NCBI GenBank assembly: GCA_963920705.1
Contig: OY987237.1
Span: 7,594,601-7,658,600 of the forward strand
DNA: 64,000 nt
Reading direction: 5' to 3'
Source: Odiellus spinosus
Taxonomy: Eukaryota; Arthropoda; Arachnida; Opiliones; Phalangiidae
Below the pieces are notes generated by a model that did not search any database, was not told the origin of the DNA, and worked only from the letters and a program-made list of their open reading frames with translations. Numbering within the stretch: the first letter of the stretch is position 1; the number at the start of each line of letters is the position of its first letter. Below are positions 1 through 50,679 of the stretch, piece by piece. Made by a program: the position numbers and the translations under genes.

Positions 1-12
1 TTTTTTATATAT

Positions 13-439: not shown

Positions 440-761
440 ATGGAATCTCGATCTTTCGCGAACTCGAACAGTTCGGCTGGATCGGGCAAGGAGTCGTCGG
501 GAATGTCTCTGTTCCACGGCGGAGGAGGCGGAGGTCCAGGAGCGGCGGCCGCGGCTGCAGCTGCGGCGGCCGGAGCCGTGTATCTCCCTTTGCCCTTCAT
601 GTACGGACAAATGAACTCTTGCCCTTTGGTCCCCAATCACTTGTTACCCTTCCCGACCTCCATGTTATCTCAACACGGTTTTTCCCATCAAATGGCTTCC
701 ATGCTTCAGAACTCTTCGGCTGGAAATTTACTCTTGCAACCGAGACCCGATGGAAAAATTG
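440..761 (+). CDS. RNF220-like: Gene A coding exon 1 (residues 1-107)
   Basis: The frame from ATG 440 encodes a Ser-rich start, Gly6 and Ala10 runs, then a hydrophobic Pro/Met-rich block (YLPLPFMYGQ ... SMLSQHGFSHQ). The donor G|GTGCGA at 762 is weak but gives phase 1, matching the acceptor at 1184; the frame otherwise stays open only to 811. A 5' non-coding exon further upstream is possible. Confidence 0.75.
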
Positions 762-3700
762 GTGCGATATTATTTTGTTTTTTAAAATATATCTTAACCC
801 AATTTAGTTAAAGGGGGAGTGAAACTAAATGGGAAACTTAAAGCTAGAAATGGAGCAGCTATTGAATTTTTTTTTTCGGAATCACCGGCCATGCCAAATA
901 ACTTATTCGAGTATTTTCGAAAATAATTAAATTAGATACGTTTTTGGTGTTAAAACGTTTTTTAATTGGGCTTCAAATACCGGCCTATTCTCTGGTTTGA
1001 AGGCTGAAATAATATGATTGGCCCAGACCTCTCTAGACCTTTAACCTTCTAGAAGATTCTACAAAATGTTACGGACATTAATAGTATTTTATTCCACTCT
1101 CCCTTTAAAATTGAGTTTTGATCAGTTAAATAGAGAAGTTAGTATCATTTGAAACGAAATAGGCTAACATCGTTTTGTCGTTAGACGCAAAAGACCAGAA
1201 TGCCCTGTTAAGCAGTTACGGCGCCCTATTGCAAGAGAAAACTCGATTACTCGAAAAAGGACTGTTTCAAGAACAGCAACATCAGCACGGCAAAGGCGGA
1301 GGAATGTCTTACGATCAACACGGTCATCCGAATAACCAGGGTATCCAACATCATTACCAAGGATTACCTAATAACCTCACGCGACCCGGCGGATTGTTCT
1401 CGCCTTTCTCAACCCGTACCGACGAGATGTCCCCCTTCAGAGAAAGTTCCGCCGGAAGTATGGAAGATCTGAGACATTCTTCGGATATGACGACACCCGG
1501 AGGTGGCGGGGCCATGTCCAGAGCCACCACGCTTAGTTTGGGAAGTAGCGAACCAAGTTGTTCGCCTTCCTCAACCGATGATAAACATCAGGACAAGATG
1601 GATTCGTCATCCATGATTGATGATGACGTCACGAGTGAGTCATAATACATTTTTTTAAACGTTACCAATAGCGGGTTATTCTGACTACTGTCATTGGATA
1701 GGCTGACAATTGACGTATCTGTTACTGTCAATGCTTATGTAGGGTGAAATTTAAGTCTTGATCAAAGTTTATACGTAGTTGTAAAGATTTCCATTTTGTT
1801 TTTGCTCGTGTATTTGATCAGAACGGGAAACTCCGTGGAATGTCCGAGACCATTTTCCTTCTCGGTGTCCTATTTGCGGTGTTCACGTTTCTCCCGCTGA
1901 CTTGGCGCCACATTTTAGGATGGAAATTGAAAATTTAACCGAATTTCATAAAAACCGTGAATGGTTGAACTTAGTTGACCTTCATAGTCCAGATCTGGTA
2001 AGTTCATTTTATGCAAATTGGTTTAGATTAGGCTAGCAGCTCCATGGGATTATACAGGGTGTTTCGTAAATGGTGGTAGGACCGAGCTACAGTGGGTTCT
2101 ATGGGTCGTTTTAAGACGAAAATGTTCTATGACGTTTTGTCGTACTGGGTGCCGTTTAAGAGTTACGAAATGAATCATGTACGGATGACCCCTTAACGTA
2201 CATTAATAAACGTATACTCAATGCTAAAATACTCTTAATTATTTAGCTGGTTTTTTAAAAGCACGGGGAGGGGTCCTAGAAATCAATTTAAAACTTGCCC
2301 TCAAAGTAGGTTTAACTGGATTCAAGGAAATCCATAATTTCTTAACAATGAAGGGTTAGCGAGCAATCGAATGTTATTGGAAATCTCGCCTTAACGACGG
2401 GCTTTTGCTCATTGGTCGCTGACCCATCAATGCTAAGAAATTCAGTACCTCCAAGATTCCAGCTAAGCCTTTTATTCGGATAAGTTTATTTCTAGTTGAA
2501 TGTAGGTGGATACTTAAACTATTAGTAATCGATAAGCTAATTATAAATGAATCATTGTTTTTTCAATATTTTTGATGAATGTGTTTATATTTGTTATGTC
2601 GTAGTCTTCTCCGAAAGCCGCTTTCCAGGATGCTTTCCGATTATCGTCTAGAATGAGTGAACGTAAACCGCCTCTTTCAAGATGGGAAATGTTCCTAAGA
2701 GTACGACTTAACAGACAAAATAGGCTTAGTGGTGAGTTTCTCGATACAAACCAGTTATAGTGCTCCCAACTGCGGCCAGAGATTTGCGCAATATATGGTA
2801 CGCTGAACAGATTTGTTCTGTAATTTGTAAAGATAAAAGTTGGGAGTACTACCCAATTATACGCTAGATTTAAATAAGTACAAACTTTAAATGTTTAACC
2901 TTTATTAAACTTTGACCCTAAAGTTATTAAATTGCGTATCGTAGCTGCTAGGGGGCGAACGCGGAGGCGTTCGGGCGAAATGGAAGCCGGAGAAGTCTCT
3001 AGATGCTACGTAAGTAAGCTTTTACTGTTTATTTACCTTACCTTTAACTTAACCCTAAAATGATCTAAATTAAGCCTTTATTCATAAATTAAAGCCAAAA
3101 TTAATTATTATAATCAAGCTAATTATAACAGAAAACATTTCACAATCCCTCTTGATTTTAAACTAACTCTCGTTACGCATTTAGACTAATATCTAACTAA
3201 TCTGATACTAAATCAATTAGCTAATTTTGATCCGGATTAAGTTAAACCTAGTCTAATACTAAATAAATTAGCTAATCCTAATCCGGATTAAGTTAAACCT
3301 AATCTAATACTAAATAAATTTGCTAATCCTAACCAAGTTAACAATAATCTAACACTAAATTACCTAATCCTAATCCAAGTTGATCCTAATCTACCTCTAA
3401 ATCAATTAACCAATCCTATTTCGATCCAATCGAAGTTGAGCCTAATCTAACTCTAAATCAGTTAGCTTACCGTACTCCTGGCCAAATTAAGTCTAATCTC
3501 ACACTAAATCAATTAGCTATTCCTAATCCAGACAAAGTTCATCCTAATCTAATATTAAAATCAATAAGCTAATACTAATGCGGACACAAAAGTTACCAAA
3601 TCAATAATCCGTTGAACTTAGTTGAGCTTAAACTAACACGGAATTAATGATGTCAGTAGAGCTTAATCCAAAATTGATATTTTGTTCAGACTAATCTAAT

Positions 3701-6700
3701 TCGAAATTAATATAAATTGTTTATTAATCACTTAAGCCTAGTAATCATCCTAAATTGAATTTAATTATTTTAAGTCTAATATATGTTAGTAGTCTAACAG
3801 CATCCTACATTAGTATTAAATTAGCCTAAAACATCATCCTACATTAGTATTAAATTAGCCTAAAACATCATCCTTAATTCGTATTAATTAAGCCTAAAAC
3901 GTCATTCTAAATTAATTAAGCCTATTTGTTAATTTTTTAACCACTTCAATATCTGTTAAGTCTAAATCGATTGTAACGTACAATTGCAGCTACCCCAAGA
4001 TCAAGAAAAATTGCATCAAATGGAAGCTTTGGCAAAACACAGGGCTGAACAATTACTCTCTCACGATGGTCATTCTGGTAAGTACATACCTTGCTCGTCT
4101 CAATACGAATTTCATATAAAAAATAATATTAAATTCTGGCCATAATAGGCCTTACATATCGGCGGCATGTATCAGTTTATAAGAGTGCAGGCGGTTTTAT
4201 TTTTTCTCCCTTCGATGATGTATGTAGTCTGCGGAAAGTGGGTATAGATGCAATTTAGGGATACTGCCAATTTATTATCAAGAGATGAGATATAGAGAGA
4301 GATATAGAGCATCCAAAGAGCTCCACGTTATACGTCGAGATATTTATTTTGAAAGAATCCCCCTGTCCAATACTCTGTCCCGCATGAACTGTCTTTATAG
4401 AAAACTGTATAACCTAAGAGAATCATGGCATTAATATCGATGGGCCTTACGACTCACCCGAGGACTCGAGGCCTCGAACGAGCTACGCTTGATCTATCTT
4501 ATTACCAAATATCTTGTTTAGATCTTTTGTCATTTATAACTATGATCATGAGTGAACGTAACGTAATAAGTACGATATTGTCTTTTAAAATAACCGAAGA
4601 ACCAAAGGATATTTAGTGGCAAAGTTAATTTGTTCAGGAAAATTATCTCAGTGAACTTGAAATTGTGGGAAAAAACCCAACGCTTCAAATAGTGGGAAAA
4701 AACCTAAAAATTGAAGTTGTAGAAGCACAATTCAATTGTGGGAGAAACAGTGAAATTTTAATTGTGGAAGCTACTACCGCGCTTGAAATTGGGCGAGAAA
4801 CCCAGCACTTGATATTGTGGGAGAAACCCAGCACTTGGTATTGTGGGGAAAAACCCAGCACTTGGTATTGTGGGGAAAAACCCAGCACTTGATATTGTGG
4901 GAAAAAACCCAGCACTTGATATTGTGGGAAAAAACCAAGCACTTGATATTGTGGGAAAAAACCCAGCACTTGATATTGTGGGAAAAAACCAAGCACTTGA
5001 TATTGTGGGAAAAAAACCAAGCACTTGGTATTGTGGGAAAAAACCAAGCACTTGATATTGTGGGAAAAAACCCAGCACTTGATATTGTGGGAAAAAACCA
5101 AGCACTTGATATTGTGGGGAAAAAAACCAAGCACTTGAAATTGTGGGAAAAAACCAAGCACTTGGTATTGTGGGAAAAAACCTAGCACTTGGTATTGTGG
5201 GAAAAAACCTAGCACTTGGTATTGTGGGAAAAAACCTAGCACTTGGTATTGTGGGGAAAAAAACCTAGCACTTGAAATTGTGGGAAATTTCTATTGTGGG
5301 AGAAAACCAAGCACTTGAAATTGTGGGAGAAAACCCATCACTTGAAATTGTGGGAGAAAGCCCATTAATTAAAATTGTGGGAAAAAGCCAAGCACTTGAA
5401 ATTAAGGGAAAATAATCCAAGGGAATAGGGAGGTAAAAAATACAGAACATTCCTACAAGAAAGCGGGTTTTTCTATGGGGATATTAGGGTTCATTTCAAT
5501 GTTGTAACCGACTGAGTGTCCGAGTCAAATAAGTCTTAGAACATAGTCTTTTGTGTTAGATTATGATTCCTAATAATTTTGGTTCCATTTTTTCTTGGGG
5601 TTGCTGAGGAAAATCGAGTTGTTGTTGGGGGTTATCCCATTTATTTATAGGGTTTTTCGTGCTCGCTCTGAGTGGTGGTGGATTCGAACGAAGCCAGCCT
5701 CTATTTATCAAAAATAAAAGTGGGGGTCACGGTTGACCACGGGGTCGTCTTTATACGTTTCACTCCACCGCGCTCTAGCCACCCCCGCACGGCGACCTAT
5801 ACCCTAGATCAAGTTGCGTTGTCCAGTTTCGCTTGACCAGATACTTCTACAATATATAGCCCCCATTCATCCAACGTCCACCCAAACATTTTTTAGTTAT
5901 ATATAATTTTGTTTCAAAATATAACCGATCCATTATCTAAAAAGGAAAACAAACTTTTGTCCCCAAGTTTCGGTTATTATTTTTCAAGAACTACTTTCAT
6001 TCAATGAGATTTAACATCGCGTAACATTTCGCCTAAACTTAAGCTGAGGTGCAAGCTATTCCACGAATATAGGACATATGTATTACATTATAAAACAAAT
6101 TTTAAATACAAATTTAGTTTATGAAGTCAATTTTCCAAAGAAAAAAATTAAATTAAATTCAGTATATTTCTAAGTGATCGGTCCAGTATTCCCAAAAAAG
6201 CGTACGGGATTTCGTGATTACACAATTTCGCCAAAGATTTCCGGATTTCTTCTTTGATTTTGCGATTTCACCAAAGATTTACGGATTTCTTCTTTGATTT
6301 CGCGATTTCGCCAAAGATTTCCGGATTTCTACTTTGATTTCGCGATTTCGCCAAAGATTTCCGAATTTCTTCTTTGATTTTTGCGATTTCGCCAAAGATT
6401 TCCGGATTTCTTCTTCTTTGATTTTGCGATTTCGACCGAGATTTCGCGATTTCGACCGAGATTTCGCGATTTCGACCGAGATTTCGCGATTTCGACCGAG
6501 ATTTCGCGATTTCGACCGAGATTTCGCGATTTCGACCGAGATTTCGCGATTTCGACCGAGATTTCGCGATTTCGACCGAGATTTCGCGATTTCGACCGAG
6601 ATTTCGCGCTTAAAGTTATCGGGATTTCTTTCTAGATTTCGGGAATTCGTTTCAAAGATATCAGAGATAAAACTTGAAGCTTGATTAAAACGGATAACGC

Positions 6701-9700
6701 GTGTGAAAGAGTCTTTACTAAGAATTGAAAGCTGGCGTTTTTCTTTTTTAATTTAGCCACAACCTCAAAGAGAGTAAAACCCATCAGATGAAAAAAAAAA
6801 AAATCCCTACCACGAAACTGCATTCTGTAATTTCCAATAAGCAACTTCTGTCTCAAAGTTATCAAAAAACGGCGTGTCCAACAAACGACACCTCTCTACC
6901 ATGAAAAAATAGATATATATAAAAAATGCCAGTTAGAATTGGGAACCTGGCGGTAAATTGAAGTACAACACCCCCTAAAACAGTTCCCCATTCTTATATA
7001 TAAGAGTTCCTAAAGAGAGATTGAATGCTTTGAGTTAATTTTATTTTACATTTTTAATTCAAGATATTTTTTAATTTCAAACTTTGCTAATCTCTAGGGC
7101 TATTAACAAAGGACACCTTTATCTTAAAGGGAGCCTGATGTTAAAATCTAAAGCCATATTTTGTTGATAAAATAGTAATACAGTAATTAAAAAAGCCCAT
7201 TCCTCCTGCAAACAAATATTTTTTAATACGTCTCTTAGTTACGACAAAATTCAGGTTAAAAGTCAGCGTTTTACCCACCATCGTCCACCATTTTGTTCCA
7301 CGTATAAAAGGGGATACCAGCCAACCAGAATTTTACTTTGGGGAAATCATGTTACATGGCGCCACAGTCTCCGAATAACTTTTGCTTCAATTAATATCTA
7401 TTTTATGGGAAATGTGGCGCCACCTTTTGGGGGGTTGGAGCTTGTATATATAATATTGGAAGAGAAAGACGAGATTTGATTGGCTTGAATCCTTAGCTTT
7501 CATCGAGCAGGATTCATAATGGTGCTCGAAATTTAAAAGTTCTTGATGGGTATTTTTTTTCAAACGGATAATATCCCATTGACATTCACGATGGTCTTAT
7601 TTAATTAACAAAAGTTACAAGTATTCCGAGCTCTAAAGAAACGGATGTTTAAAAATTAAAGAAAAAAAAAGCATTATACCATCCCTTTAACCAAAAAGTA
7701 AAAAAAAAATTCTAGAACAGTTTCAATAAGTTTTTCGATACATAACTTCATCTGAAGCCAGCCGAGGGATGAGTATAATCTCAACATGGACTTTCGAAAT
7801 GTGGGGGCTGGTTCCCCTTTCCCCTCTGGCAAACTCTAGAGAAATTGAGAGGTGGTGGGGGGATTTGAGGAGGGTGATTGCCTCAAAACTGAGTTCCGAA
7901 CGAAAGCTCGGTTAGATCATGTATATATATCCAATATTCTAGACGTTATTGAGTTGAAAGGCAGGGACCATAAAATACACGAAATATTTCTTCCATTAGA
8001 CTTAGCCGTATTACCCCCGCTTTTACTTCATTGTCTGTATGAAAACGGAACAAACTTACGATCATTCGCGTGAAAAATGTATGTTAACTACTTTTTTCTA
8101 TCTAATTTAACATTAATGTATTAATCCGCGAGGTTAGAGAATATTATACCTTATTTCTCGCGAGCATAGTCCATCCCAATTCGAATTTTCATCAAGTATC
8201 AAGCCTATTATACCCGTTTTCTCTTATTATTATGTTACATTGGATCGAGAAGTAACGAGGGCTCTTGGATATTGTTACCTCAATGGTGAATTTTTAAAGT
8301 TATAACAAGCTAGGAGAGGAAAAAGAACTGAAGGAGCAAGCTGTCAAAAAGAAACGCAATAAGAATTTGCCCTTGCAGAAAAAATCTTTTTTTTTTCTCC
8401 TTTTCAGGATATGGGTTGGATAGGGGAACAGAGCTACGGAAGAGAATTTTTCTCAAAAGAGAATGAAATTGAGCAAAAAATAATCGGAAAATTGATTGTA
8501 TAAAAAAATCTAGAGAAAATTATCTATAGTAAAATTTTTAAAATTTAAATTAATGAAGAAGAGTAACGTTTTAATTATTTTTAATCGGGACTATGAGCTC
8601 GGAATAGGATAATGAATAGCTTAGGATATCCATTAATATAGGTTGTTTCAGATATTTTTATCTCGGATAAATTGTTTGTTTAAATATGAAACCACAAATT
8701 ATATAAACAGGCGATTATCAAATGGTTTCGAATTATCCAGAGATAAAATTTTAAGCTCGATTAATAAACAAAATTACGCGTTTATTCGAACGGATAACGC
8801 CAAGATAAAAATACGACGTTTTTCGAAATCCGTGTAGAATGAAATATAATAATTATATTTTAATCTAAATTGAAAGATACAGACTAAATGACTACATTTC
8901 TAGCTTCGAAATCTCAATTTGGGTTAAAATCCGCGAAGAAACTCGAGTTTCAAATTGTGTTTCGTTAATTTCAGTTCGCTAAGCCTAACAACATTTTAAT
9001 GCTGATGAAAATGACAGATAATATTAAATTACAGCTAATCCAACTACGGCTTAAAACTGGCCCTCGTGTTAGTAATTATCTGCTTAAAACTATCGAAATT
9101 CTGTCATTTTCTAAGCTGCACCTGTAAAAGTGTTCTAATCGGTGTTTTCGAGGCAAAGTTTACATTTTTTTATATTTTTGATATTTTAGGTTTATCCGAT
9201 GAACAAACCGCTTCAAGGTCAATCATGTCCATGAGCACGATAGCATCACCAACGTATCCTTTTCGTAATTATAATTACACGGTAATTAAACTTAATTGAT
9301 GTTAAGTTTCCCTTAATTACAATTAACAAAGATCCGAAACTTCACCGTCTCATTGGGGATCATCGGAAACCCCGAGGTAAGAAACAACAATGAATTTTGT
9401 ATAATTAAGTTAGGCTTAGCGTAAATCTTCTATTAGGCTTAGCAAAATCTGCAGTTTGTTTTAACAAAAAACTGCTCAAATTAGGCTTAACCACTAGTGA
9501 TAAGAAGTGCATATTGATAATTGTCACGACACGTGTGACCGGCTCGAATTCTGTTGGAGAAGCGAAACTTAATCCTAAAGGCCAAATTTTACTTAACACT
9601 TAAAATTTAATCGTTTAAATTGACCTCTGACATATGGGGGATGTCAAATCCAATACTTTAAAATGAAATTCAGCGTGTCGAATAGTTTTTTATTTCAACC

Positions 9701-12700
9701 CCGGGCCGAAGTAACAAGCGGACGTTTTGCGCGGGGCTTGAAATTCTATCTTTTAAAGTGTAAAAAAAGATTTTAAGAATTGCCCCTAACCGTCACGTGA
9801 TGGGGATACGCTCTTTGAACACGGTTAGATTGTTCACTGTTGAAGATTGTACGTAACGAAAGACTGTATTTCTAATACACGCCGTGCCTTCTATCTCATT
9901 ATCCTCCTAATATTACTATACTCGTTCTATTTCCGTGAACAATCGAGATACTCCCTTGATGTACCAAATTTTAGAAGATTAAAATTCGGCAAAGTGCTTA
10001 TTTCATTCGCTTTACTCGTCACAATATAGAATTGCTTAGTGTATTTTATCAGCGGCACGAAGCAATATGTTGGACTCTAATTCGTCTAAAAGGCTTCAAA
10101 TTCAATTAGGTTAGGCCCGAAACTCTCGTAGCTATATAGAATACTAGCTTCAATTGTTAAAAAACTGATTTTTTTCTTCTTTCAATGAAGATATAGGATA
10201 GTCATGTTTTCCTGAAACAGACATTTGAAATTTAATTTATTGCTCTCCCTTCCTAAAACTTGACTTGCAGAGATAAATGGGACCTAGTCATATTTTGAGG
10301 TACAATGTGGATAAGTCTAATTTGAGCCTTTGTTTAAAACTAAGAGAAATTACTATTTGTTAAGCCTAATTTTTTTTAAGAGAGATGAGACTATTTTCAG
10401 ACCTATTGATATTTTTTTAAAAGAGTAACCCTAATTGATATTCGTTAAGCATAATTTGAAACTAATAGCTATTCGATGAGCCTATTGGTTATATTAGCTA
10501 AGCCTATGTAGTTTGTATTAGCTAAGCCTGTATAATTTGTACTATCTAACCCTGAATAGTTCGTTTTAGCTAAGCCTATTTGAAAACTCGACCATGTCAC
10601 TTTACTCTCGCTAACCGTAATGCGAACTCAACCCTTTTAGAAGATGCTTAAATGAAACCTTTGGAATTTCATTGGCGCGGCTAGGTGGGTGGGTGGGGGT
10701 GTTTATAGGGATCGTTCTAAAACTATAGGCACACAGAAACCCTCGACTCTAATACGGCTAGAAAATATTTAAAGTAAGGTAAAGTTATTGAGGGGTTTTG
10801 AAATTGGATAACGGCTATAACGGAGCCGCTCTTTTCAACCCCAAAGTGTGCTATACAACCACCTATTCCCCTCACATGCCCCCACCCCCATGTTATGTAC
10901 GGGGCCAGGGGGACAGGGGAGCTAGTTATATAAGCTAGGAGAATCGTTTTCGAAATTCCCCGTTTTCTAGGCGTTCCTCTAAATAAACCGAATATGGAGA
11001 AATACGTTAGGACTATGAAAGGTTAAAGGGCAAGTCTTAAGGCTACGTTATTATCTCTGGCTGGATTGCGGAACAAAGGTCAACATTATTTTCTTGTCAC
11101 TATCTTGATAAGAACCGTGTTGACCTTTGACTGATAACCGGGCTAGAAACCTACGAGATAAAGTAGTTAGCTGTTAGATTCGGGCTTGAAATGTAGTCAC
11201 CTTGGAAAGCTCAGTAAATAGTCATAATATACGTACTTGCTCAATTATTTCACGTAACGAACAATGAGCAACCCCTTCCAGGCCGATTTTAAATTGATAA
11301 ATCATTTGTTGGCTGCTGCAATTGTATTATCTCTTTACGATAAATTTTCAAAAATGTAGCTTTAATATTTGACCTTTGAATCTGAGATTTAGCCCTGTCA
11401 ATAAAAATATATTTCTTATAAAATAATCTTTCTCGGAGAATATCTCGAGTCTCAAGGCTCACGGCTTAATCTATAGAGAGAGCGATGAAAAACTATCTCT
11501 CTTCTCTCCGCATCCCTAGACACGATTATTTAGTACTACTTGTTCTGGATTCTACTTTGATTTTCTTTCGCGGTAAATAGAAACAAGGGTTCAGGGTTCG
11601 CGCACGACCTGCAAATTTCCCCAAATGTCAGGGAAATGTCAGGGAATTTGAAAATGAGCTCAAATGGTCAGAGAAATTAAATATTTTGGTACGTGTCAAT
11701 GAACTGTTGACCTATTAATTGTAACATAATTATTATAAACTGATATTTGTCTACAGATTTAAATTTTTTCTCATATTCTGAGTAAACTATCGACCCCTGT
11801 TTGATAAACTAAGTGAAATAAAAAGTGGGAATTACCAAGAGTAGGGCGTAAGAATATATTCATGAAAAAAAAATTATTTACCATTCAAAGAGACATCTTT
11901 CCTCCTCTGTTCTAGACCTTTCGTTCTATTATTTTTTCGGTAATACTACGAGACCTTTTAGACTAGCCCTTAATTTAAATACATATCAAGTTAGTAAGCC
12001 CCCTACACCCCTTTTTGTAGCTTCTACTTCATACGACTTTGTTTCTTGAACGTGTTACGTATTATAAAGCTTTTCTAGTTGGCAGGGTGATGATATAACC
12101 CCTTAGTGGTCGGGAAAATGCGGCAAATGGTTCACCCGTCGAGCTTTTTGTCGCCTTCACACACCCCTTGTCGACGATTAAGGCAGACTTTTGTCTTATA
12201 CATTATACGCCGCTTGGTGGGGGGAGGTGATAACCCCTTAAACGAGTTAAGTAACATTCATGTTTTCAAATTTATTTCTATTACATAGCAGGGGAGACGC
12301 TTGCCCCGAAGGTGATTCCAATTACGCCAATTCAGGCGGAGCTAGTGGTGAGATATTTTCAAATTTAAAACCTTTTTCATTTTAAAATTCTTATATCATT
12401 ATTATAATGATTATTAGATTGTGAGGATTTAAAGAATACTCATTATTGGGTCGTATTTCAATTTTTATTAGTAATAACTTTCAACTCGAAATGTTTCTCA
12501 GATAATCAGATGTTATATTTTTCTATGCTTGATTGATTTAAATATTATATTTTTCTATGCTCTATATAATCAAATATTACATTTTCTATGCTCTATATAA
12601 TTAAATATTACATTTCTATGCTCTATAGAACTAAATATTACATTTTCTATGCGTTATAAAATAAAATATATTTTATATGCTTTATAAAATTTAATATTAT

Positions 12701-18580: not shown

Positions 18581-18589
18581 GCACTGGGT

Positions 18590-33055: not shown

Positions 33056-33212
33056 AAATTAGGCTTAATTGATCACAATCTTCCATTTTCTTTCAAATTA
33101 GGCTTAATTGATCACAATCTACCATTTTCTTTCAAATTAGGCTTAATTGATCACAATCTTCCATCTTATATCAAATTAGTCTTAATTTATCACTGTCTTC
33201 CATTTTTTTTTT
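33056..33212. repeat. 39-bp tandem repeat, ~4 copies, start of a compound satellite
   Basis: Unit: AATTAGGCTTAATTGATCAC then AATCTTCCATTTTCTTTCA. More decayed relatives reach back to about 32880. It passes directly into the 31-bp array. Confidence 0.85.
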
Positions 33213-35708: not shown

Positions 35709-35813
35709 ATGCCGTGCGAAAGCGAAATCATGGATTCTAGCGAAACGTCAAATCCCGAGCTAGAGAACTCGGCCATTACACAGACTACTCAGCTAGCTTC
35801 CAAGTTGGATGAG
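35709..35813 (+). CDS. RNF220: Gene B coding exon 1 (residues 1-35)
   Basis: ATG 35709 opens a frame ending TTG GAT GAG|GTACCG, phase 0. Acidic and Ser/Thr-rich. The second in-frame ATG at 35730 could also serve. Confidence 0.75.
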
Positions 35814-38800: not shown

Positions 38801-41800
38801 ATCATAATTTGTTTTATAGATTTATTTTAATTTTAAGGAAAATCAGAAAAAATTGGAAAATATTATAATTGCAGTATTTCGCCTATATTTTCCTAAAATT
38901 TAAGTAATTCTCTAATATTTTCCTAAAATTTAAGTAATTCTCCTATATTTTCCTTTATTTCTAAAAAAACCATATTGCTATAAATTCCTACAAATTGGGT
39001 AGGGATTTTCCTAAGTCAAAGGTACAGGGGCGTCATTTGATTAGTGGTAGGTTCTACTTTTAATTGAATTTTGACAAAATCAGAAGGTTTTCAGACTTTT
39101 TTGTACAATTCAGACCAGCTTACTTCCTGATCAATGTTTAACCACAATTAAATCATTATGATTTACCTGTGGTTTAACTAATACGCAAAAATGTCTTTGT
39201 TTTTGAAGCGCAATGAATTAAAAAAAAGTTTCCACTTCATTCTCCTTTAAAGGCATCGGCTTTATTGATACGCTAGAAAAATGACTTAAAATTTTTTTCA
39301 ATATCAATTAATATTTTCTAATGAAAATTACGTAAAATTTATTTTTCCAATAGAAATCTTTTGTAGGTTAAATGTTAGTTTCGAGGTTAAAAGGTCATAT
39401 AATTAATCATTCCCAAAACTTTTAAGTGTTATACATAATCAAACCAATTTTTGCTACGCCCTATACGCGTAATTATAAATTCATTCAATTTAAACTGAAG
39501 CTTTCTCATGAGCTCCAGATAAAAATTGAGTAGCATTTTCGCGCGGTCTATTTCGTAAAAGTACGAAATCCAGATCAAATCAACTACCTTACGTACGAAA
39601 ATGATCATGAATTAAGTTCTAGAAATAAACTACGTCATATATCGAGAAAAAAATTTAAAGTTTCTTACTTCACGCTTCAACCATGGATTAATCAACCTCA
39701 CAGGGATAATTCACTCTGGGTACGATTTGCTATACTAGTAGTTGAAGATGATTGTTTCAAACATGGCTGCCAGACATTTTATCCGGCCCCTCAATTTTAC
39801 CCCCATACCGATACAAATCCGGAAGTAATCCATGAGAGCATCCAAAAAAATTGACAGCCCCACTTAAATAAAATAGAAATTTCAATTTTCCTTAAAAAAT
39901 AAATTTATTTTCAGTCCAAAAATTGAACCTGGTTTGGTGGAAAGTCCCATTCATTCTACACTAACGCCTCAAGGAGGACCACCTACCTTGCTGCAACATA
40001 TTAAACACGAAGATATCCACCGTCTGGATGATTCGACCCCTGAACCTTGTAATTCCGACCGCGTTACGCCTGAAGAAAATGGCAGAACTCTTCGCAGTGA
40101 GTTTAATTTTTGAAACTTTCCTGGGCTCCAAATAATTTTAATTTTCTTAATTGGACTTAACACTTTTAGATATTAGTACTGCGCTGTAAAACATTTCATC
40201 ACCCTTAAAGGGAGACTGAAAGAAATCGTGTGTATTACGCGATAACTGAATTTTTAGATTTCTTAGACCATAAAATATATTATTTAGTACAAAGTCGGAT
40301 GGTAAAACGCTGACTTTTGACCTTCATTTTTTTCGTAATTAAGCGGAGTTAAAATTCACTTGTTATTAGGTTGCATTCTCCCTTTAAGCGCGGGCGCTCC
40401 TCAAATTTGTGTTATTTTTTTGGGGAAGTCGTAGAGGTGTTTATTGCCAAAATTCTAAAGAAGTTTTTTTTTTCTGGTGTTTATTGTAAGTGGGCTGCAG
40501 AAAGTAACTTAGCGTGTCCGCCCTGGCTTTGAATCATCTCATAAAGGACTCTCACACCTGAATTTTTATTATGGCAAGTTAGCACCTTAGCTAAAACCCC
40601 CTGGGTAAGGGGGGGGGGGGGGCAAATATATATACCAAATTCTTGGCCCGGTTTTCGGGCTGACAATATAAAGGTCTTATGATACAAAGGTGGCCGCCAA
40701 GTTTTTAGACCATTGAAGATTTCGCACGTGGCTATCGAAAGATGCATTCCATTTGACCTATAGCTTTTCAGGCTCTAAAATGTCATTCTTGCTAAGCCTA
40801 CTTTATTTAGATTATTTTTTTCAAATATAAAGGCTATTGGAAAGTTGGAGAAGCTTTTGCAGATTTGATTGCAAAAATGGGTTTACTGTTTCACCCTCAC
40901 TTTGTCTTAGGCAGACTATAAGTGCTATTGGAAAGTTCGCAAAGATTTTGCAGATTTGATTGCAAAAATAAGTTAATGGCAAAAACGTGGGAAAAATTTC
41001 GTACAGATGCAGAAATACCAAGATATCTAAAAAACAACCAATAAATTCTTAATCGCCCAAAATATCAGAAATAATTCAATGAGATTTGTCAAAATGACAA
41101 ATTACAGAATATCGAAAATAATAAAAACGTTTGCCGAAGAGTCGAGGAAAAAAAAAATGGTCAAATTAAGAATTAGTTAAATTTTAGTTACATTGAAATG
41201 AATTCAGTAAAAACCCAATCCAAAGCCACAGTGACAAAAAAAGATGAGATGACATTTTTTTATATTTTCTTTTAAAACTAAATTGGATTTATTTTTCCCC
41301 AAGACCATAATCCTATTTATTTTCTATACCTAATGTACGTGGTTAGATTTAGTTCTACATTCGGACTGTTAACCCTAATTGAAACAATTTCGTTATAAGT
41401 GGGGACGAGAAAACCAGGAGCTTGTTGGGCTTATAGTAATTCGAGCATTCGTAACTTTTCCAACGCTTCTTCAAATTTATAACGACTAAACGTAGTTTTC
41501 TCTTGGCCCCTGTTTGGTTAGTTTCCCTTTTAGTTATAAAACTACCGTTTGTGTCAATGTAAGACTGCAGCGCGTGTAAAATTTGATAACGCTTCTAAAC
41601 TTTTACGATCTGATAACGAAGATGTAGCTTTGTACGTCGCTAACAACTCTTAACTGATTATTGGGAAGATCCCCAACAGGGGCACCATGATTTAAGGCTT
41701 ATTTTGTCCATGGAGTGTGTTTGAATTTACTGGAAAGTACGACCACTTTCTTGTTGAGGTTTTAGTTACAACCTAGTTTAGCCATCATTAATCAAGGAAG

Positions 41801-44800
41801 GGTGAGAAAATTCAATTATGTTTATTGCTAATATAGAGCAGTGATTTTGTTAATTGAATGAATGCATCGTGAATGTCAATCGTGAAACCATACCCGAATG
41901 TAACGGCAAACGTTTTATTGGAACTCATTGTTTTAGGAAATTGATACGAGTTATTCATTAACCGATAAGAACAATTTGAAACTCGAGTGTCTTCGTGGAT
42001 TAGAACCCAAATTGAGATCTCGAAGCTAGAATGTAGTCATTTAGTCGCTGTTCCTTTCAATTTAGATTAAAATATAATTATTATATTTCTACACGGATTT
42101 CGAGAGACGTCGTATTTTTATCTTGGCGTAATTTACCAAAATTTTGAAACTATAGCCTACAGGGGCTTGACTGGAAAGTCGTTAAAAATGTACTCGATAG
42201 AACAATATCACGTATGAACTACAAATATTTTTTTTCTCCCTTTGACTCTCTTTATTCGGCTTAGTTTGGTGTACGGAATTTCTGGGGAGGTTTGTGGGGA
42301 TGTAGCCCCCCTCTACTGATGGGTATTGATGGTCTTTTGATGGCCCGAATATCCTAACGCATACTGATGTTCAAATTGGGGGAAGGGAAAATTCCCCTTT
42401 AATCATAATCTGGCCGGGGTTTTCTTTCTTTCATTCAAAGGGAGAATGCAATCTAACACCAAGTGATAGTTTTTTTTATCGATTCCTTATTGTTTAAATA
42501 AGGATTTTTCAGGCTAGAAATAGGGTGAAATATGAACCGAAATTTTTAAAATAGGGAGCAAATAGGAACCAATTTAAGAAGAAATTAGATCTTTAATTTT
42601 CACAAAATAATTTTAATTTTATCACATTTATTCCTGATAATTATATCATACTGACTTAGTCATTTTTTCTCTCTGTCAGTTTTTCGACTTATCATAAAAT
42701 TTGGGTTCAATATTATAGGACGCCGGTACTTTTATTCAAATTGACTAGAAATATGGTGATTTAGGGACCAAAATCACAATTTTATAGTGGTTTAGGGACC
42801 TCAAAAAAAAGTAGGGGTTTTAGGTATTTTAGGGACGTGGTGGGAGGGCTGATACCGGTAAATTACCGTGAAACGGTTAATTACGCGGTTATTTACTGGG
42901 CAATATACCAATTTCCAAAATTACGGTAATTGTAGAACTCTAGACCGAACTTTTTCTTGCATAGTGACACTAAACAGACGCGTAAAGATGAACCCGTCTC
43001 CTTCAAAGGGAGCCGAATCGGGCAGGCTTAACTGTTAGTTGTCTTTCATCACCCTTCGGTCCTTTTGAAACCCGGCACCCCGCGGCGTCTGCTTCTTAAT
43101 TTGTTGCATTCACGCGCTTTGGTGATGCCCGCCTTTCTTCACTCGTTACATTTTCCCGCCAATTCTCGCCTTTGACTCCTCCCCCTCGCGCGCGTTCCCC
43201 GCGATTCCAATAACGCGCAGTCTCGCGCGTTCTCATTCTCATTGGAAGAAGCCACACGATGCGGCTTCCGACAGACGTTATTAACGTCATAACGTATTAC
43301 AGGGTTTTTCCTGACACGATAAATCGAAATAAACCGAGAAATATGTAGAAACGTGTTGTAGATTCCCGGATGTTATTTTTTTTAACCAAAAGGAATTTTT
43401 AAAGAAAACTAGTTTCGCTTCGGCTTCTAAAAAAGTACATTTATACTGAAGGTTTGAGTAAAATTGTATTGAAAACAATTACTATATAATATTTAACTTA
43501 ACCGTGTGAAAAATGTCTTTTTTAGTGTTTTCTGGGGTATAATACGAGTATTGTATAGTATTCAAGATTCAATCAAAATAAAGCGGCTCTAAAAACATGT
43601 CGATAAATTGGGGTTACACCATCTATAAAACCACTTGGGCCCACTCACGCCAATAGTTAATTATTATTTTTTTTTTTAATTATTATTTTTATATCAAAAA
43701 ATTCACGAATGCGAAGATGGGTTTATAATATTTAGTGGCCCGTATGTACTTGAGTACGTAAAAGTGTTCTGCCTATAAGTGTATTCTATTATTTGTAGAA
43801 GTGAAGAAACGAGCATTTTCCGAAAATTTGGCCCCGTGTTGTCCAGTTTGTGGCGTCACCGTTCGACCATCAGAACTTCCATCTCATTTTCACCACGAAG
43901 TTTGTCGCTTAGAGAAAGTCGCCAAGTAAGGACCACTTAACCTTTACATATTTTTAAAGGGAGAATGTAGTTGTCCGACAAGCAGTCATTTTCTATCGTA
44001 GATAAAGAAATCAGCTACAAATCCCCCCAGATATAGTTCAAGGTATATAATCCCCCAGATATAGTTCAAGGTATATAATCCCCCCAGATATAGTTCAAGG
44101 TATATAATCCCCCCAGATATAGTTCAAGGTATATAATCCCCCCAGATATAGTTCAAGGTATATAATCCCCCCAGATATAGTTCAAGGTATATAATCCCCC
44201 CAGATATAGTTCAAGGTATATAATCCCCCCAGATATAGTTCAAGGTATATAATCCCCCCAGATATAGTTCAAGGTATATAATCCCCCCAGATATAGTTCA
44301 AGGTATATAATCCCCCCAGATATAGTTCAAGGTATATAATCCCCCCAGATATAGTTCAAGGTATATAATCCCCCCAGATATAGTTCAAGGTATATAATCC
44401 CCCCAGATATAGTTCAAGGTATATAATCCCCCCAGATATAGTTCAAGGTATATAATCCCCCCAGATATAGTTCAAGGTATATAATCCCCCCAGATATAGT
44501 TCAAGGTATATAATCCCCCCAGATATAGTTCAAGGTATATAATCCCCCCAGATATAGTTCAAGGTATATAATCCCCCCAGATATAGTTCAAGGTATATAA
44601 TCCCCCCAGATATAGTTCAAGGTATATAATCCCCCCAGATATAGTTCAAGGTATATAATCCCCCCAGATATAGTTCAAGGTATATAATCTACCCAGATAT
44701 AGTTCAAGGTATATAATCTACCCAGATATAGTTCAAGGTATATAATCTACCCAGATATAGTTCAAGGTATATAATCCCCCCAGATATAGTTCAAGGTATA

Positions 44801-47800
44801 TAATCCCCCCAGATATAGTTCAAGGTATATAATCCCCCCAGATATAGTTCAAGGTATATAATCCCCCCAGATATAGTTCAAGGTATATAATCCCCCCAGA
44901 TATAGTTCAAGGTATATAATCCCCCCAGATATAGTTCAAGGTATATAATCCCCCCAGATATAGTTCAAGGTATATAATCCCCCCAGATATAGTTCAAGGT
45001 ATATAATCCCCCCAGATATAGTTCAAGGTATATAATCCCCCCAGATATAGTTCAAGGTATATAATCCCCCCAGATATAGTTCAAGGTATATAATCCCCCC
45101 AGATATAGTTCAAGGTATATAATCCCCCCAGATATAGTTCAAGGTATATAATCCCCCCAGATATAGTTCAAGGTATATAATCCCCCCAGATATAGTTCAA
45201 GGTCTATAATCCCCCCATAAATACGAAACTTGAATATAGCTTGATATTTAGAACGGATTAATTATTTTTATTAATTATAGTACACAGATTAAGGATTACT
45301 CGTAATCGCTTTAGTACAGTCAAAGGTATAACCTGTACACCGATCACGCTGAGTGACTGTCATGAAGGGTCCGTCTTTTAATAATAAATAATGTTCTATT
45401 CACCATTGCGAATAAATTTTCAATTTATGAAGAACATTTTCGTTTTGGACATCTGTCCAGTAACTCCCTCTCAAAAATGAAAAGTTAGGGGCATTTGCAA
45501 AATCTATCGAACAATGTGTAGTGTCCAGAGCAGTGTTGGGTAAAATACTGCACTTTCGGTATTTAAAATAAAATACTAAATACTCCGACGATAAAGTATT
45601 TAAAATAAAATACTTAAATAAAGTATTTTAAAATACTAAATACTTAAAATACTGTAATGTTAAGGTCTAGCGAAAGGCATGGTCCCAGACCGACTCTTCA
45701 TCCTCGTAGCACTGGAATTCTTATTGCTACTTCAATGCCATTATGGTCAGTCCTCCTAAATCTGAACGTTTCTATTTCTGAACACTTTCATTTAAAAAAG
45801 TAGAACTTAAATTTGGTTGGGTCTGTTTAAAGATGGAAGAGCTCATTTTGTAGATTAAGAATGGGGCTATTCGCGGAACACAACTTCAACACTCTAGAAA
45901 AAGACCCGAAGAAGATACGACACTAATTAGCCAACCGCGATAATTAGCCTAATTAGACCGTTTTCAAGGGAATGTTTCCCTATACGGCCCAGAAATAAGG
46001 TTTTATGAATTTCGGAAAAATTCGTGGGCCAACAAGCTCGATTTGGTCGTAAATTTGAGTTTCTCGCTACAAAATAAACTTCTCAAATTTTAAAATATAT
46101 CCAAGAATTTCAAATTCAGAACTGTGCGAAATCAAACTTGGGAACACGCATTAATATATTTGAGAAACTGCAAAATTTGCTAAAGGAACCATATCGAAAC
46201 GAGAAATGAGTGTCACCAATGGATTTCTTGGCCGAATTTACCGAGGAAATGCGGAATTAGCGCGCTCGAGCCAGTATTTGCGAAGTTATCGACGATTTCC
46301 TTTGAAATAAGGATTCCTTTATGGTTTCTATGCACAAGCAATGCCTAATGTTTAAATCGCCGATAACTTCGCAAATACTGGCTCGAGTGCGCTAATTCCG
46401 CCTCTCCCTTGGTAAATTCAGCCAAGAAATCCATTGGTGACACTCGTTTCTCGATTCGAGGTGCGCAAGTGGTTCTTTTTGCAAATCTGGGATTTTTTAT
46501 ATAGCCTATAAGATAGTCAGATTTAGAAGCAGGGGGTGTTCAGAATTCGAATCGTTCGTTCAGAAGTAGAAGCCGCTATTGCCGTTTTAAAACCGCATCC
46601 GCGTCAAAAGTACTCTTCATGGAATGATGAAAACTAGCGCAATGGGTGCGCGACTATACAAACTTAATATTAGATTCTTAATTTCGTCGCTAACAATTCC
46701 AGAGCAATCGAGATCTCGGATTTCTTAAAAAGCGTTCAGAGATAGGCGACCCTACCCTACGGCGATAAGCGGGATTTTTCAAGCGTGTTTCTTCCGCTTG
46801 CATCTTGACGATGTTTTTTCCGGACAATTTAGTTGTACCGAGATTTTTTGATAGATAAAGTATTTCGCTAATAATATTCAGTATCTTGTTTAAAATACCA
46901 GAAAAAATGTATTTAAAATAATATACTAAATACTTTTATTTAAAAGTATTTAAAATAAAATACTAAATACTTAAAAAGTATTTAAAATAGTATTTAAAAT
47001 ACACGTATTTAAAATACTACCCAACACTGGTCCAGAGCGTCCTGCTCTTCTGTTCCTGGGACCCTGGCTGTATTTGTGAAGGCAAGACCTAAGAATTATA
47101 AAGAAATTGCGGATATAATTATTAGAATATAATTTAACCAGGTTTTACTGGAGTTGCTTAGCGTTATTTCAACGATAAAGAGTCGATAGAAATTATAAAA
47201 TCACTAGTTGTGGGGCAAATGCAGTTTTAATTCAAATACTTTACGAAAGTTATAAGACGTTTATAAAACTAATTCCATTGTTTATGTCCTTTGTTGTTGC
47301 GGCGTTATCAATAACTAGAAGCGTTCAGAGACCCAGCAGAGAAAATACCCCAACAGCTTGTCCTTCAGGAAGTAGAAGAAAAGATTTACCATTTAGCGAA
47401 CCACGTATTAACACGCCAGAGTTCAGATGGGAAGCTTATGAGAGAATCAAAAATAACCGAAATAGTCGATTAACCGGTGAGTTAAATATCAATAATATAC
47501 CCTTAAGGTTAAAAGAAAAAAAATATTATATTTGTTAATTACTGGCTTGTTTTAGCCAGAGCAAACCGTGGCAAAAAGAAAGAAGAAACGACTTGTCCCA
47601 TCTGTTCCGAGAAAGTTAGTGGAACCCCCGAAGAACTCAACAATCACGTCGAACTGTGTCTGAAGAAAGTAAGTTTTTAACTACTACAATTTTGATAAAA
47701 ACTGATCGTTTTCTTAATTATTTTGCAACTTATTTGTTAGCAGAAAGAATCTTCTTCCGACGAGGAACCGGTTGACGTAGAAGGCGATGAAAATTTCGAG

Positions 47801-50084
47801 GAATACGATTGGGGAGGCGAAACCAGGATACGAGCCACCAGTTTAGTTCAAGGGGGATTATCTACTTTAGGGTTTCAATCTATGAAGAAAAATTCAACGG
47901 AAGATGACGAAGATTTAGATTTGAATGTTGACGGTGACGATACGCTAACATTTGGACAAGTAAAATAAAAAAAACTAAAACTTAATGTAGAAAACTAAAT
48001 TACGATTAATTCTGAAATTTTAGGCTCAATATTCCGAAGTCGATGTTATTCCTTGTCGGACAGACGTTCCCTCTGAAGATAAAGCAAGGGAAGAATTGAG
48101 ACAAGCTGTTTTAAGGTAAACTTTTTTTAAAGTCGTGACATGTTTTGTTTCAATCCATGACGCTTTTTGTCTCAATGTGTGGCTTTAATTCAAAATGTCC
48201 CCAATGTTTACTTTTTGCTCAAAATGTCCCCAATGTTTTCTTTTTGCTCAAAATGTCCCCAATGTTTACCTTCATATTTTAATTTGAGCCCGAAGCGCCC
48301 TTCACATTTTAATTTGAGCCCGAAGCGCCCTTCACATTTTAATTTGAGCCCGAAGCGCCCTTCACATTTTAATTTGAGCCCGAAGCGCCCTTCACATTTT
48401 AATTTGAGCCCGAAGCGCCCTTCACATTTTAATTTGAGCCCGAAGCGCCCTTCACATTTTAATTTGAGCCCGAAGCGCCCTTCACATTTTAATTTGAGCC
48501 CGAAGCGCCCTTCACATTTTAATTTGAGCCCGAAGCGCCCTTCACATTTTAATTTGAGCCCGAAGCGCCCTTCACATTTTAATTTGAGCCCGAAGCGCCC
48601 TTCACATTTTAATTTGAGCCCGAAGCGCCCTTCACATTTTAATTTGAGCCCGAAGCGCCCTTCACATTTTAATTTGAGCCCGAAGCGCCCTTCACATTTT
48701 AATTTGAGCCCGAAGCGCCCTTCACATTTTAATTTGAGCCCGAAGCGCCCTTCACATTTTAATTTGAGCCCGAAGCGCCCTTCACATTTTAATTTGAGCC
48801 CGAAGCGCCCTTCACATTTTAATTTGAGCCCGAAGCGCCCTTCACATTTTAATTTGAGCCCGAAGCGCCCTTCACATTTTAATTTGAGCCCGAAGAACCC
48901 TTCACATTTTAATTTTAGCTCGAAAAATTTGAAAAATTCTAAACTAATCTAGAGTATTTGGTTTGTTAAACAGAAATAACGATTCTTCAACAACATGTAA
49001 CAACTCTGGTGTTAATAGCAAATGGATTTCAAATAAAGAAGAATCCAACGAAAATCTCGACGCTAAAGACGGGGTACATTCTGAGAAGTTAGTTTAAAAA
49101 AGATTATTTAATCATAATTTAAAATTTCATAGTTTGAAACTAATTTAAAAATATGATTGCCGGGTTAATTATGTATTTTTTCCCTCAAGAAACGGGGATT
49201 CTAATCAAATAATATCATCTTTAAAACAACGGATATCCGAATTAGAAGCTCCAAATACGGGAAAATTAAAATGTTTAATTTGTATGGTAAGTTAATATTT
49301 AATTCTTTAATTTCCTATTAAGTCTCGTTCACACTAGAAACTTTGAAACCATTTTTAACCATTTTACATAAGGTCAAAATGGAAAATTAGGTTCTAATAA
49401 TTTAAAGGGTCTATCTGCGATTTTTAAATCCCCTTTAAAGTACCCTAATTGTTTTCTAGCTTAGCAGACGATATTGACCATAACAAATTGTATAGTCAAA
49501 GCTAGGCTGTGACGTTGCGCGCGTAAGGGAAGAGCCTTTTAAAGGGGCAGATGGGGCCTTTAAGCGTGGATTAGAGTATTCCAAACTGTTTAAAAGTATA
49601 GCTCATATGACTTTTTTTATCATTACTAGGAGATTTATTCAAAACCAGTTGTATCCATTTCGTGCTGGCACGTTCATTGCGAAGAATGCTGGTTAAGAAC
49701 TCTGGTAAATAATATTTTATTGTTATTATTACCTTCCCAAACCCATAAGCTATTATTTCCCCTTTTCATTTACAAGTTAGTTAGATCAGATTAAATATTT
49801 AAATATATGTTAGTTCAAAGTATCAATATTTAACCCTCAAAATCGATAAAAATATATCTCAACAACAGTTCAGTGGCCAATCATTTAAAACTGAGTTGCC
49901 ATAAGTACTTAATTTTCGAACTTAAAAACAATCGAAATTCTCGAACCCAGGTTTATTGGTTCCTGTCTTTTTGACTAAACACTGATGATAAAGTTTGGTT
50001 GTTTGTTTGCAGGGTGTGAAAAAATTATGCCCTCAATGTAACACTATAACGTCACCAACGGATCTCAGGGTCGTCTTTTTATGA
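35709..50084 (+). CDS. RNF220: RNF220 RING E3 ubiquitin ligase (gene B), 13 coding exons
   Basis: Joined exons: 35709-35813, 36992-37072, 38314-38720, 39915-40096, 43799-43925, 47319-47476, 47556-47668, 47744-47959, 48024-48115, 48974-49087, 49190-49286, 49630-49704, 50013-50084. They total 1839 nt, encode 612 aa, and all phases agree. Protein: Ser-rich disordered N-terminus; zinc finger 1 with C273, C276, H288 and C294; W-E-A-Y block 331-353; zinc finger 2 with C367, C370, H384 and C388; F-E-E-Y-D-W...R-I-R-A-T core at 409-429; acidic D/E stretch 441-458; coiled-coil-like 545-555; C3HC4 RING with C560, C563, C576, H578, C581, C584, C595 and C598. Domain order and the D-V-D-G-D-D-T-L and D-V-I-P-C motifs match vertebrate RNF220, which ubiquitinates Sin3B and acts in Wnt and Hedgehog signalling with ZC4H2; those roles are family knowledge. 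An ATG at 35730 is an alternative start. A polyadenylation signal follows the stop. Confidence 0.93.
36992..37072 (+). CDS. RNF220: Gene B coding exon 2
   Basis: Acceptor TTAATCAG and donor CAG|GTAATA, phase 0 both sides. It encodes CDRYRFERQAAFAARAHLNS, basic and Ala-rich. The small exon is supported by phase and splice sites only. Confidence 0.65.
38003..38145. repeat. Fold-back element with 21-bp arms (gene B intron 2)
   Basis: AATCGGGCCAATCGTATTAT at 38003 is inverted as ATAATGTGATTGGCCCGATT ending at 38145. The right arm and the adjoining GAAGGCT also resemble 998-1030 inside the gene A intron 1 element. Confidence 0.65.
38314..38720 (+). CDS. RNF220: Gene B coding exon 3, Ser/Pro-rich
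   Basis: Acceptor TTATTCGTAG and donor AA|GTAGGT, phase 0 in and phase 2 out. It encodes a long low-complexity Ser/Ala/Pro segment. Codons are GC-rich against very AT-rich flanks, which supports coding. Confidence 0.88.
38883..38960. repeat. 30-bp tandem repeat, 2.7 copies (gene B intron 3)
   Basis: TATATTTTCCTAAAATTTAA followed by GTAATTCTCC. Confidence 0.8.
39524..39867. mobile_element. MITE family 2, second copy (gene B intron 3)
   Basis: The right end TTGACAGCCCCACTTAA is the inverse of TTAAGTGGGGCTGTCAA, matching the family terminus. Shared interior: TTCGCGCGGTCTATTTCG, CGTACGAAAATGATC, AACTACGTCATATATCGA. The left end is eroded and approximate. Confidence 0.5.
39915..40096 (+). CDS. 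RNF220: Gene B coding exon 4
   Basis: Acceptor TATTTTCAG and donor A|GTGAGT. It encodes PKIEPGLVESPIHSTLTPQG and LLQHIKHEDIHRLDD. I-K-H-E fits the SUMO consensus, as does a similar I-K-R-E in vertebrate RNF220; modification is inference. Confidence 0.88.
40205..40387. mobile_element. TTAA-flanked MITE family 1, 183-bp copy (gene B intron 4)
   Basis: TTAA-AGGGAGACTG at 40205 and inverse CATTCTCCCT-TTAA ending 40387. It sits about 110 bp after exon 4 and has no coding capacity. Confidence 0.65.
41969..42130. repeat. Inverted partner of the 8793-8969 dispersed repeat
   Basis: AAGCTAGAATGTAGTCATTT, ATTAAAATATAATTATTATA and ACGTCGTATTTTTATCTT are reverse complements of the copy in gene A intron 6. 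Confidence 0.75.
43070..43270. promoter_or_regulatory. CpG-rich patch in gene B intron 4, possible internal promoter
   Basis: Dense CGCGCGCG-type dinucleotides and an inverted CCAAT box (CATTGGAAG at about 43239) lie 530 bp before the zinc finger 1 exon. A transcript starting here would encode a shorter, zinc-finger-plus-RING protein; this is conjecture. Confidence 0.25.
43799..43925 (+). CDS. RNF220: Gene B coding exon 5, zinc finger 1
   Basis: Acceptor TATTTGTAG and donor AA|GTAAGG. It encodes CCPVCGVTVRPSELPSHFHH then E-V-C. The R-P-S-E-L core is identical to vertebrate RNF220. Confidence 0.95.
44023..45216. repeat. 29-bp minisatellite, ~41 copies (gene B intron 5)
   Basis: The unit begins CCCCCCAGATATAG and ends TTCAAGGTATATAAT. 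Nearly perfect, except a run of three CTACCC variants at 44688-44775. One strand is C-rich. Confidence 0.96.
45523..47037. mobile_element. Non-autonomous hAT DNA transposon with 8-bp target duplication
   Basis: The element spans 45531-47029 (1499 bp). Both ends carry the perfect 12-bp inverted terminus CAGTGTTGGGTA and are flanked by GTCCAGAG (45523-45530 and 47030-47037), an 8-bp duplication as hAT elements make. Both subterminal zones are crowded with AGTATTTAAAATA-type motifs, likely transposase binding repeats. A long internal palindrome occupies 46190-46465. No transposase frame is visible, so it would depend on a helper in trans. It lies in gene B intron 5. Confidence 0.93.
46190..46465. 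repeat. Long internal palindrome of the hAT element
   Basis: Arms of about 100 bp (46190-46291 and 46361-46465) share GAGTGTCACCAATGGATTTC and GCCAGTATTTGCGAAGTTAT in opposite orientation around a ~70-bp loop. The inverted halves are about 90% alike by eye. Confidence 0.85.
47319..47476 (+). CDS. RNF220: Gene B coding exon 6
   Basis: Acceptor TAACTAG and donor G|GTGAGT. It encodes a basic Ser-rich lead and EFRWEAYERIKNNRNSRLT, the RNF220 W/Y-x-x-F/Y-x-R-x-x-x-N-R block. Confidence 0.92.
47556..47668 (+). CDS. RNF220: Gene B coding exon 7, zinc finger 2
   Basis: Acceptor TTGTTTTAG and donor AAA|GTAAGT. It encodes a basic R-G-K-K-K run and CPICSEKVSGTPEELNNHVE then L-C, a C2HC finger of the UBZ-like kind found in RNF220. 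Confidence 0.95.
47744..47959 (+). CDS. RNF220: Gene B coding exon 8, RNF220 signature core
   Basis: The acceptor TTAGCAG allows one extra Gln if TTAG at 47740 is used. Donor CAA|GTAAAA. It encodes NFEEYDWGGETRIRATSLVQ then GG, and the acidic DLDLNVDGDDTL, the most diagnostic RNF220 motifs. Confidence 0.96.
48024..48115 (+). CDS. RNF220: Gene B coding exon 9
   Basis: Acceptor AATTTTAG and donor AG|GTAAAC. It encodes AQYSEVDVIPC and an EDKAREELRQAVL helix, both RNF220-like. Confidence 0.95.
48187..48265. repeat. 29-bp repeat, ~2.7 copies
   Basis: CTCAAAATGTCCCCAATGTT then TTCTTTTTG, just before the 30-bp array in gene B intron 9. Confidence 0.85.
48271..48930. repeat. 30-bp minisatellite, 22 copies, filling gene B intron 9
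   Basis: Unit: TTCACATTTTAATTTGAGCC then CGAAGCGCCC, virtually perfect; the last two units are degenerate. Length is divisible by 3, so a frame stays open, but exon 9 cannot read into it: an in-frame TAA follows its donor at once. Confidence 0.97.
48974..49087 (+). CDS. RNF220: Gene B coding exon 10
   Basis: Acceptor TTAAACAG and donor AA|GTTAGT. It encodes an Asn/Ser/Glu-rich linker (KWISNKEESNENLDAKDG). Confidence 0.85.
49190..49286 (+). CDS. RNF220: Gene B coding exon 11, helix and first RING cysteines
   Basis: Acceptor CCCTCAAG and donor ATG|GTAAGT. It encodes IISSLKQRISELEAPNTGKL then K-C-L-I-C-M. Confidence 0.94.
49630..49704 (+). CDS. RNF220: Gene B coding exon 12, RING core
   Basis: Acceptor TTACTAG and donor CTG|GTAAAT. 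It encodes KPVVSISCWHVHCEECWLRT, nearly the vertebrate RNF220 sequence. It is 75 nt, phase 0, as in gene A. Confidence 0.97.
50013..50084 (+). CDS. RNF220: Gene B coding exon 13, RING end and stop
   Basis: Acceptor GTTTGCAG. It encodes KKLCPQCNTITSPTDLRVVF then L and TGA. The 72-nt length equals the last exon of gene A. The usual final L-R-R-I-x-L is changed to L-R-V-V-F-L. Confidence 0.97.
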   Translation, partial: GVKKLCPQCNTITSPTDLRVVFL

Positions 50085-50640: not shown

Positions 50641-50679
50641 TTAACTTCCAATGAACAAGGGAACCCCTTTTAAAAAAAA

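Follow-up and report, generated by a model that had tools for sequence, protein, structure and literature searches.

The window analyzed here, a 64,000-nucleotide stretch of one contig (C15:7594601-7658600), contains two intact, intron-rich genes of the RNF220 family, gene A and gene B, which lie head-to-tail on the plus strand. Gene A spans positions 440-15960, and gene B runs from 38377, or from further upstream, to 50084 (gene and exon coordinates are window positions). Judged by their sequences the two genes are duplicates, and our best explanation, to which we assign a probability of about two in three, is that a single RNF220-family gene was duplicated in tandem long ago, with gene B being RNF220, gene A probably a Tey-type paralog, and the pair still linked. 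We infer both the date of the duplication and the identification of gene A with Tey, the latter from the published two-gene set rather than from an alignment to Tey. Two family members were already known in insects; the point of interest is only that the pair is still side by side.

Gene models were built by reading all six frames and chaining exons with a small script, and final exon choices were made partly by hand where the script score skipped an exon or took a minisatellite. Spliced, both models have a frame open from start to stop. Gene A starts with an ATG at 440 in exon 1 (440-761), which has a single match in its own genome. Exon chaining also placed exon 2 (1185-1634), exon 4 with the SRWEMFLRVRLNRQNRLS block (2605-2731), exon 6 (3990-4077) and an acidic exon (13339-13411), while exon 3 with zinc finger 1 (CPICGVHVSPADLAPHF; 1822-1997) comes from the model together with Pfam and exon 5 (2945-3009) from splice and coding scores. 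The pre-RING stretch and first RING Cys pair (CPSCR) follow at 14257-14440, the 75-nt RING core exon at 14660-14734, and the 72-nt last exon, whose stop ends at 15960, at 15889-15960. These 10 exons encode 543 aa. An alternative of 12 exons and 572 aa adds two weak, doubtful exons, 9190-9217 and 12289-12347; the first has a weak donor and is frame-neutral only when paired with the second. The middle of gene A is uncertain and is the least certain part of its model. Another segment there, 4806-4977, was taken as an exon by the script and dropped as a minisatellite.

From its in-frame ATG at 38377, gene B has 11 exons and encodes 530 aa. The N-terminal exon (38331-38720) is followed by exons at 39915-40096, 43799-43925 (zinc finger 1, model and Pfam), 47319-47476 (NNRNSRLT at its end; skipped by the script score and restored by hand), 47556-47668 (zinc finger 2), 47741-47959 (FEEYDWGGETRIRAT...VDGDDTL, model and Pfam), 48024-48115 (QYSEVDVIPC), 48974-49087, 49190-49286 (first RING Cys pair, CLICM), 49630-49704 (75-nt RING core) and 50013-50084 (72 nt, with the stop at 50082-50084). 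An upstream first exon is likely, and 34901-34989 on the plus strand is one candidate; its donor is weak and the exon is doubtful, as is the middle of gene A, and counting it would bring the protein to 575 aa. The initial annotation had proposed two homologous head-to-tail genes encoding complete RING proteins of 583 and 612 aa from 25 exons. The arrangement and homology are borne out, with both genes on the plus strand at the ends given above and an RNF220 domain and a RING in each, and the RINGs are indeed complete; the lengths and exon count were not reproduced exactly.

The intergenic gap is about 22.4 kb when measured to 38377 and 18.9 kb when measured to 34901. Pfam searches gave no matches for 17 additional ORFs from within and near the two genes, including a set of ten of which nine lie in this gap, and Rfam and tRNA searches of the window were equally without matches. 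AATAAA motifs lie 3' of the stop in both genes, which is weak evidence in AT-rich DNA. Long, near-uniform minisatellites occupy 33209-34464, 44020-45217, 48269-48924, 50973-53846, 53866-60944 and 60945-64000, with periods of 27, 29, 30, 12, 32 and 11 bp, respectively; some lie in gene B introns, and a 13 kb block follows gene B.

The two proteins differ in domain content. Gene B matches the full RNF220 domain (PF15926, 221.6 bits, positions 5-248 of 249), and the 572-aa model of gene A matches its first half only (46.9 bits, positions 5-135 of 249; Pfam cut-off 26 bits). Both end in a C-terminal C3HC4 RING with all eight ligands (PF13923, 38.9 bits in A and 50.0 bits in B; cut-off 27 bits). 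Gene B has two zinc fingers, an FEEYDW...DGDDTL block and the RING; gene A keeps zinc finger 1, an R-x-N-R-x-x-R-L block and the RING. When the gene B protein was searched by tblastn against positions 1-16500, the RING core (E = 2e-8), last exon (1e-4) and zinc finger 1 (3e-4) were recovered, the pre-RING stretch (0.02) and the R-x-N-R-x-x-R-L block (0.15) matched weakly, and zinc finger 2 and the FEEYDW...DGDDTL block were not convincingly matched. Nor did tblastn with gene B find the second half of the domain inside the 4-14 kb intron of gene A, although a strongly diverged second half scattered among short exons may have escaped the search. Because the second zinc finger and the FEEYDW...DGDDTL block had no convincing match there, gene A is classed as a diverged family member rather than as an RNF220 ortholog. 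NCBIfam gave only matches below the cut-offs, and no RNF220 structure appeared by name among the PDB matches listed (the best 60 of 64, the best 60 of 91 and all 50).

That the genes are duplicates is indicated by their proteins and introns together. BLASTP aligned A with B at E = 8e-26 and showed identity in 99 of 365 columns. Three introns fall at the same codon and phase in both genes: NRLS|/NSRLT| (phase 1), CPSCR|/CLICM| (phase 0) and WLDVL|/WLRTL| (phase 0). A further intron, before zinc finger 1, is in phase 1 in both genes and precedes the Cys by 14 codons in A and by 13 in B. The initial annotation had counted five coinciding introns, but its 75-nt exon and 72-nt last exon merely follow from introns that are in the count anyway, so that four are comparable, of which three coincide exactly and one is a codon apart in the same phase. 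The chance of at least three exact coincidences among four introns is roughly 1.6e-6, a figure to be read as an order of magnitude only, the blocks having been picked post hoc.

Three comparisons make the evidence lean toward an old split of A and B: the lack of common intron DNA, the RING identities and the different domain content. Blastn of the A region (1-16500) against the B region (34000-50700) returned only three short inverted matches, of 178, 43 and 36 bp, which are probably dispersed repeats, and detected no common DNA in equivalent introns. The RINGs of A and B are identical at 32 of 53 positions, whereas the human RNF220 RING, in the form that we take it to have, is identical to B at 41 of 53 and to A at 30 of 53. 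The shorter blocks are mixed and do not decide the age: against the presumed human sequence the R-x-N-R block matches better in A (11 of 18) than in B (6 of 18), and for zinc finger 1 the three pairs among A, B and human RNF220 are about equal (11-12 of 24). An inverted match of 89% identity between 8797-8969, in a gene A intron, and 41957-42129, in a gene B intron, is probably a dispersed repeat.

The RING tree was small and comprised seven rows and 54 columns, including the presumed human row and, as outgroup, four BRE1 rows; RNF4, RING2, BMI1, BRCA1 and more RINGs from the PDB search were left out of it. Gene B and human RNF220 were joined with a support of 97 in IQ-TREE and 0.93 in FastTree, gene A was placed outside them on a branch that was not long, and A, B and RNF220 were set apart from BRE1 with a support of 97. 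This topology fits a split older than the divergence of arthropods and vertebrates, or a more recent one after which A changed faster. It also agrees with the initial annotation in placing gene A with RNF220 rather than with BRE1.

Gene A is present once in the 443 Mb genome (286 contigs). At E values up to 10 there were 14 matches, of which 11 were in gene A itself, one was the RING of gene B, one was a BRE1 homolog on C1 (C1:120322) and one was a degenerate gene B fragment on C15. The last, an extra RING match considered as a further family gene, was rejected as a gene B fragment with a TGA. Gene B, by comparison, has left five degenerate, intron-bearing fragments elsewhere in the genome, and the six PF15926 matches in the genome comprised two in gene B and four in such fragments. 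A plus-strand part of gene B with exons and introns, 47036-48163, recurs at C280:357137-358224, C280:398388-399475, C9:493233-494317 and C8:8436394-8437066, the two C280 copies being on opposite strands. Identity is 85-86% in three of these copies, and the C8 copy consists of two pieces of 90 and 77%. The same codon is a TAG in all four, and their flanks are alike past the gene part, so a single fragment was probably multiplied inside a larger repeat. The fifth fragment, a copy of the RING exons and introns of gene B (49206-49901, plus strand), lies on the same contig some 204 kb before gene A, at C15:7389979-7390709; it is 87% identical and has a TGA in the RING.

Several repeats were observed around these segments and along the contig. 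Window positions 46800-47032 are a dispersed repeat found over many contigs (longer matches 84-98% identical, 40 of 264 candidates scored), which ends beside the left edge of the multiplied fragment. A second dispersed repeat, 49389-49563 in a gene B intron, has tens of copies, most of them with 79-85% identity (40 scored out of 3252 first-look candidates). ORFs at L002:2975-3187 (minus strand) and L003:345-563 (plus strand), near two of the fragment copies, had no Pfam match and resemble what we take to be a Copia-type RNase H tail. Among the five contig ends examined for repeat runs, one end of C15 has a TTAGG array of 596 copies in its last 3 kb; TTAGG is the telomere repeat usual in arthropods, and we take the genome to be arthropod-like. 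A 23-bp satellite occurs at the starts of C15 and C8, which may point to telocentric chromosomes, and other repeats occur at the end of C8 and the start of C1. The downstream neighbor of the pair is a Death-domain ORF (L049:2634-3242, minus strand, 27.1 bits), for which a PDB search gave no matches; fn3 and kinase matches in downstream plus-strand exons (L049:3807-4073 and 7554-7832) were below the cut-offs.

The premise in the initial annotation that RNF220 is usually single copy fails because two insect members have been published, and the lineage-specific expansion that it drew from this premise is not supported. In the passages of PMC10508689 drawn on here, Drosophila has Tey (CG8780) and CG4813/RNF220, of which Tey belongs to the RNF220 family as a diverged member whose RING is partial and CG4813 has a complete RING; both Tenebrio paralogs have a complete RING; and the central RNF220 domain is called shared and highly conserved, Tey included. 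Excerpts of the open-licence literature searched contained no statement on the linkage of Tey-type and RNF220 genes. A duplication within the animal's own group still has to be weighed, with gene A evolving fast and not being a Tey ortholog, and Tey arising in a separate event. We regard this as possible but rather unlikely. The genes are adjacent, about 19-22 kb apart, as is common for young duplicates, the pair was seen in a single genome, and gene A is without half of a domain with which Tey is described in those passages, as fast-evolving copies may be. This last point lowered our confidence in an old pair and raised that in a lineage-specific event. Against such an event stand the equivalent introns, in which no common DNA was detected, the RING of gene B, which is nearer to that of the presumed human RNF220 than to that of gene A, the branch of gene A, which is not long, and the two paralogs already present in Drosophila and Tenebrio according to the same passages (PMC10508689).

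The remaining explanations are far less probable. Genes A and B could be transcribed as a single unit whose 5' or 3' halves alternate, given their same strand and order and the lack of a further gene between them among the nine gap ORFs scanned. We consider this very improbable: a start, a stop, a zinc finger 1 and a full RING are present in both genes separately, each stop is followed by AATAAA motifs (a weak point in such AT-rich DNA), and a joined protein would hold two domain sets. Decay of gene A into a pseudogene is just as hard to credit. Half of its RNF220 domain was not found, its middle exons are weak, and pseudogene fragments derived from gene B lie elsewhere, but those fragments have stops and the gene A model has none, its 10 exons being open, mostly with good splice signals, and its eight zinc ligands intact. 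Least likely of all, and largely refuted, is an origin of gene A in another RING family, for instance a BRE1-like one, with only the RING in common with gene B. BRE1 rows are identical to A at 19-21 of 51-52 positions and to B at 15-18, and in the PDB search with gene A, RNF4, through its two RING copies of 28.0 and 27.5 bits, had the best total E-value, and the highest score for a single RING was that of BRE1B (33.3 bits). The PF15926 match of gene A, however, covers about 130 residues outside the RING, its R-x-N-R-x-x-R-L block has the same intron as in B, and the tree sets A, B and RNF220 apart from BRE1.

We therefore return to the old tandem duplication as the preferred reading. Gene B would have kept the full RNF220 domain and RING and would be the RNF220 (CG4813-type) ortholog; from gene A the second half of the domain would have been lost, or would have been absent from the start, and this gene would most likely be the Tey-type paralog described in insects. 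From the families to which they are assigned, both proteins are predicted to be RING E3 ligases. As gene B has the RNF220-defining domains and the genome has one ZC4H2-family match (262.5 bits, on C3), ubiquitination assisted by ZC4H2 is its likely mode of action; by analogy with vertebrate RNF220, gene B would probably work with this partner on nuclear substrates, ubiquitinating regulators. Gene A, which retains the RING and half the domain, would probably act on different targets or in different tissues, much as Tey acts in the muscle of flies. The linkage seen here would be a relic of the duplication that was later broken in Drosophila, where CG4813 presumably lies on a different chromosome arm from tey. 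A more far-reaching version, which we advance tentatively and with some doubt, is that the pair preserves, like a fossil, a tandem duplication that took place before the arthropod-vertebrate split, the A-type gene having been kept in arthropods and lost in vertebrates, with the linkage surviving here and broken in flies. If so, Tey and RNF220 would form an old cluster, perhaps sharing regulation. The pair suggests an origin of Tey by tandem duplication of RNF220, provides a family member with a full RING and without half of the RNF220 domain, and corrects the idea of RNF220 as always single copy. This species also allows gene A to be compared with gene B for division of labor, in ZC4H2 binding and in tissue of expression.

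The A/B pair is not a new kind of system and can be placed among known proteins. BRE1 (RNF20-RNF40) is like gene A in having its RING at the very C terminus and a similar ...D(L/F)xR(I/L)xL end; we know of no RNF220 domain in BRE1, and the RING identity between gene A and the BRE1 of this genome is 19 of 52. Searches of prokaryote genomes and viral contigs with pieces of gene B confirmed no relatives. Gene B resembles vertebrate RNF220 and Drosophila CG4813 in its full PF15926 domain, two zinc fingers, DGDDTL block and C-terminal RING, the human motifs being those we presume. Gene A was set beside Tey and its beetle ortholog by their published description, as a second family member. It differs from Tey, as portrayed in the passages drawn on, in matching half of an RNF220 domain with which Tey is described and in having an intact RING where that of the fly is degenerate; in the completeness of its RING, gene A is like both Tenebrio paralogs (PMC10508689).
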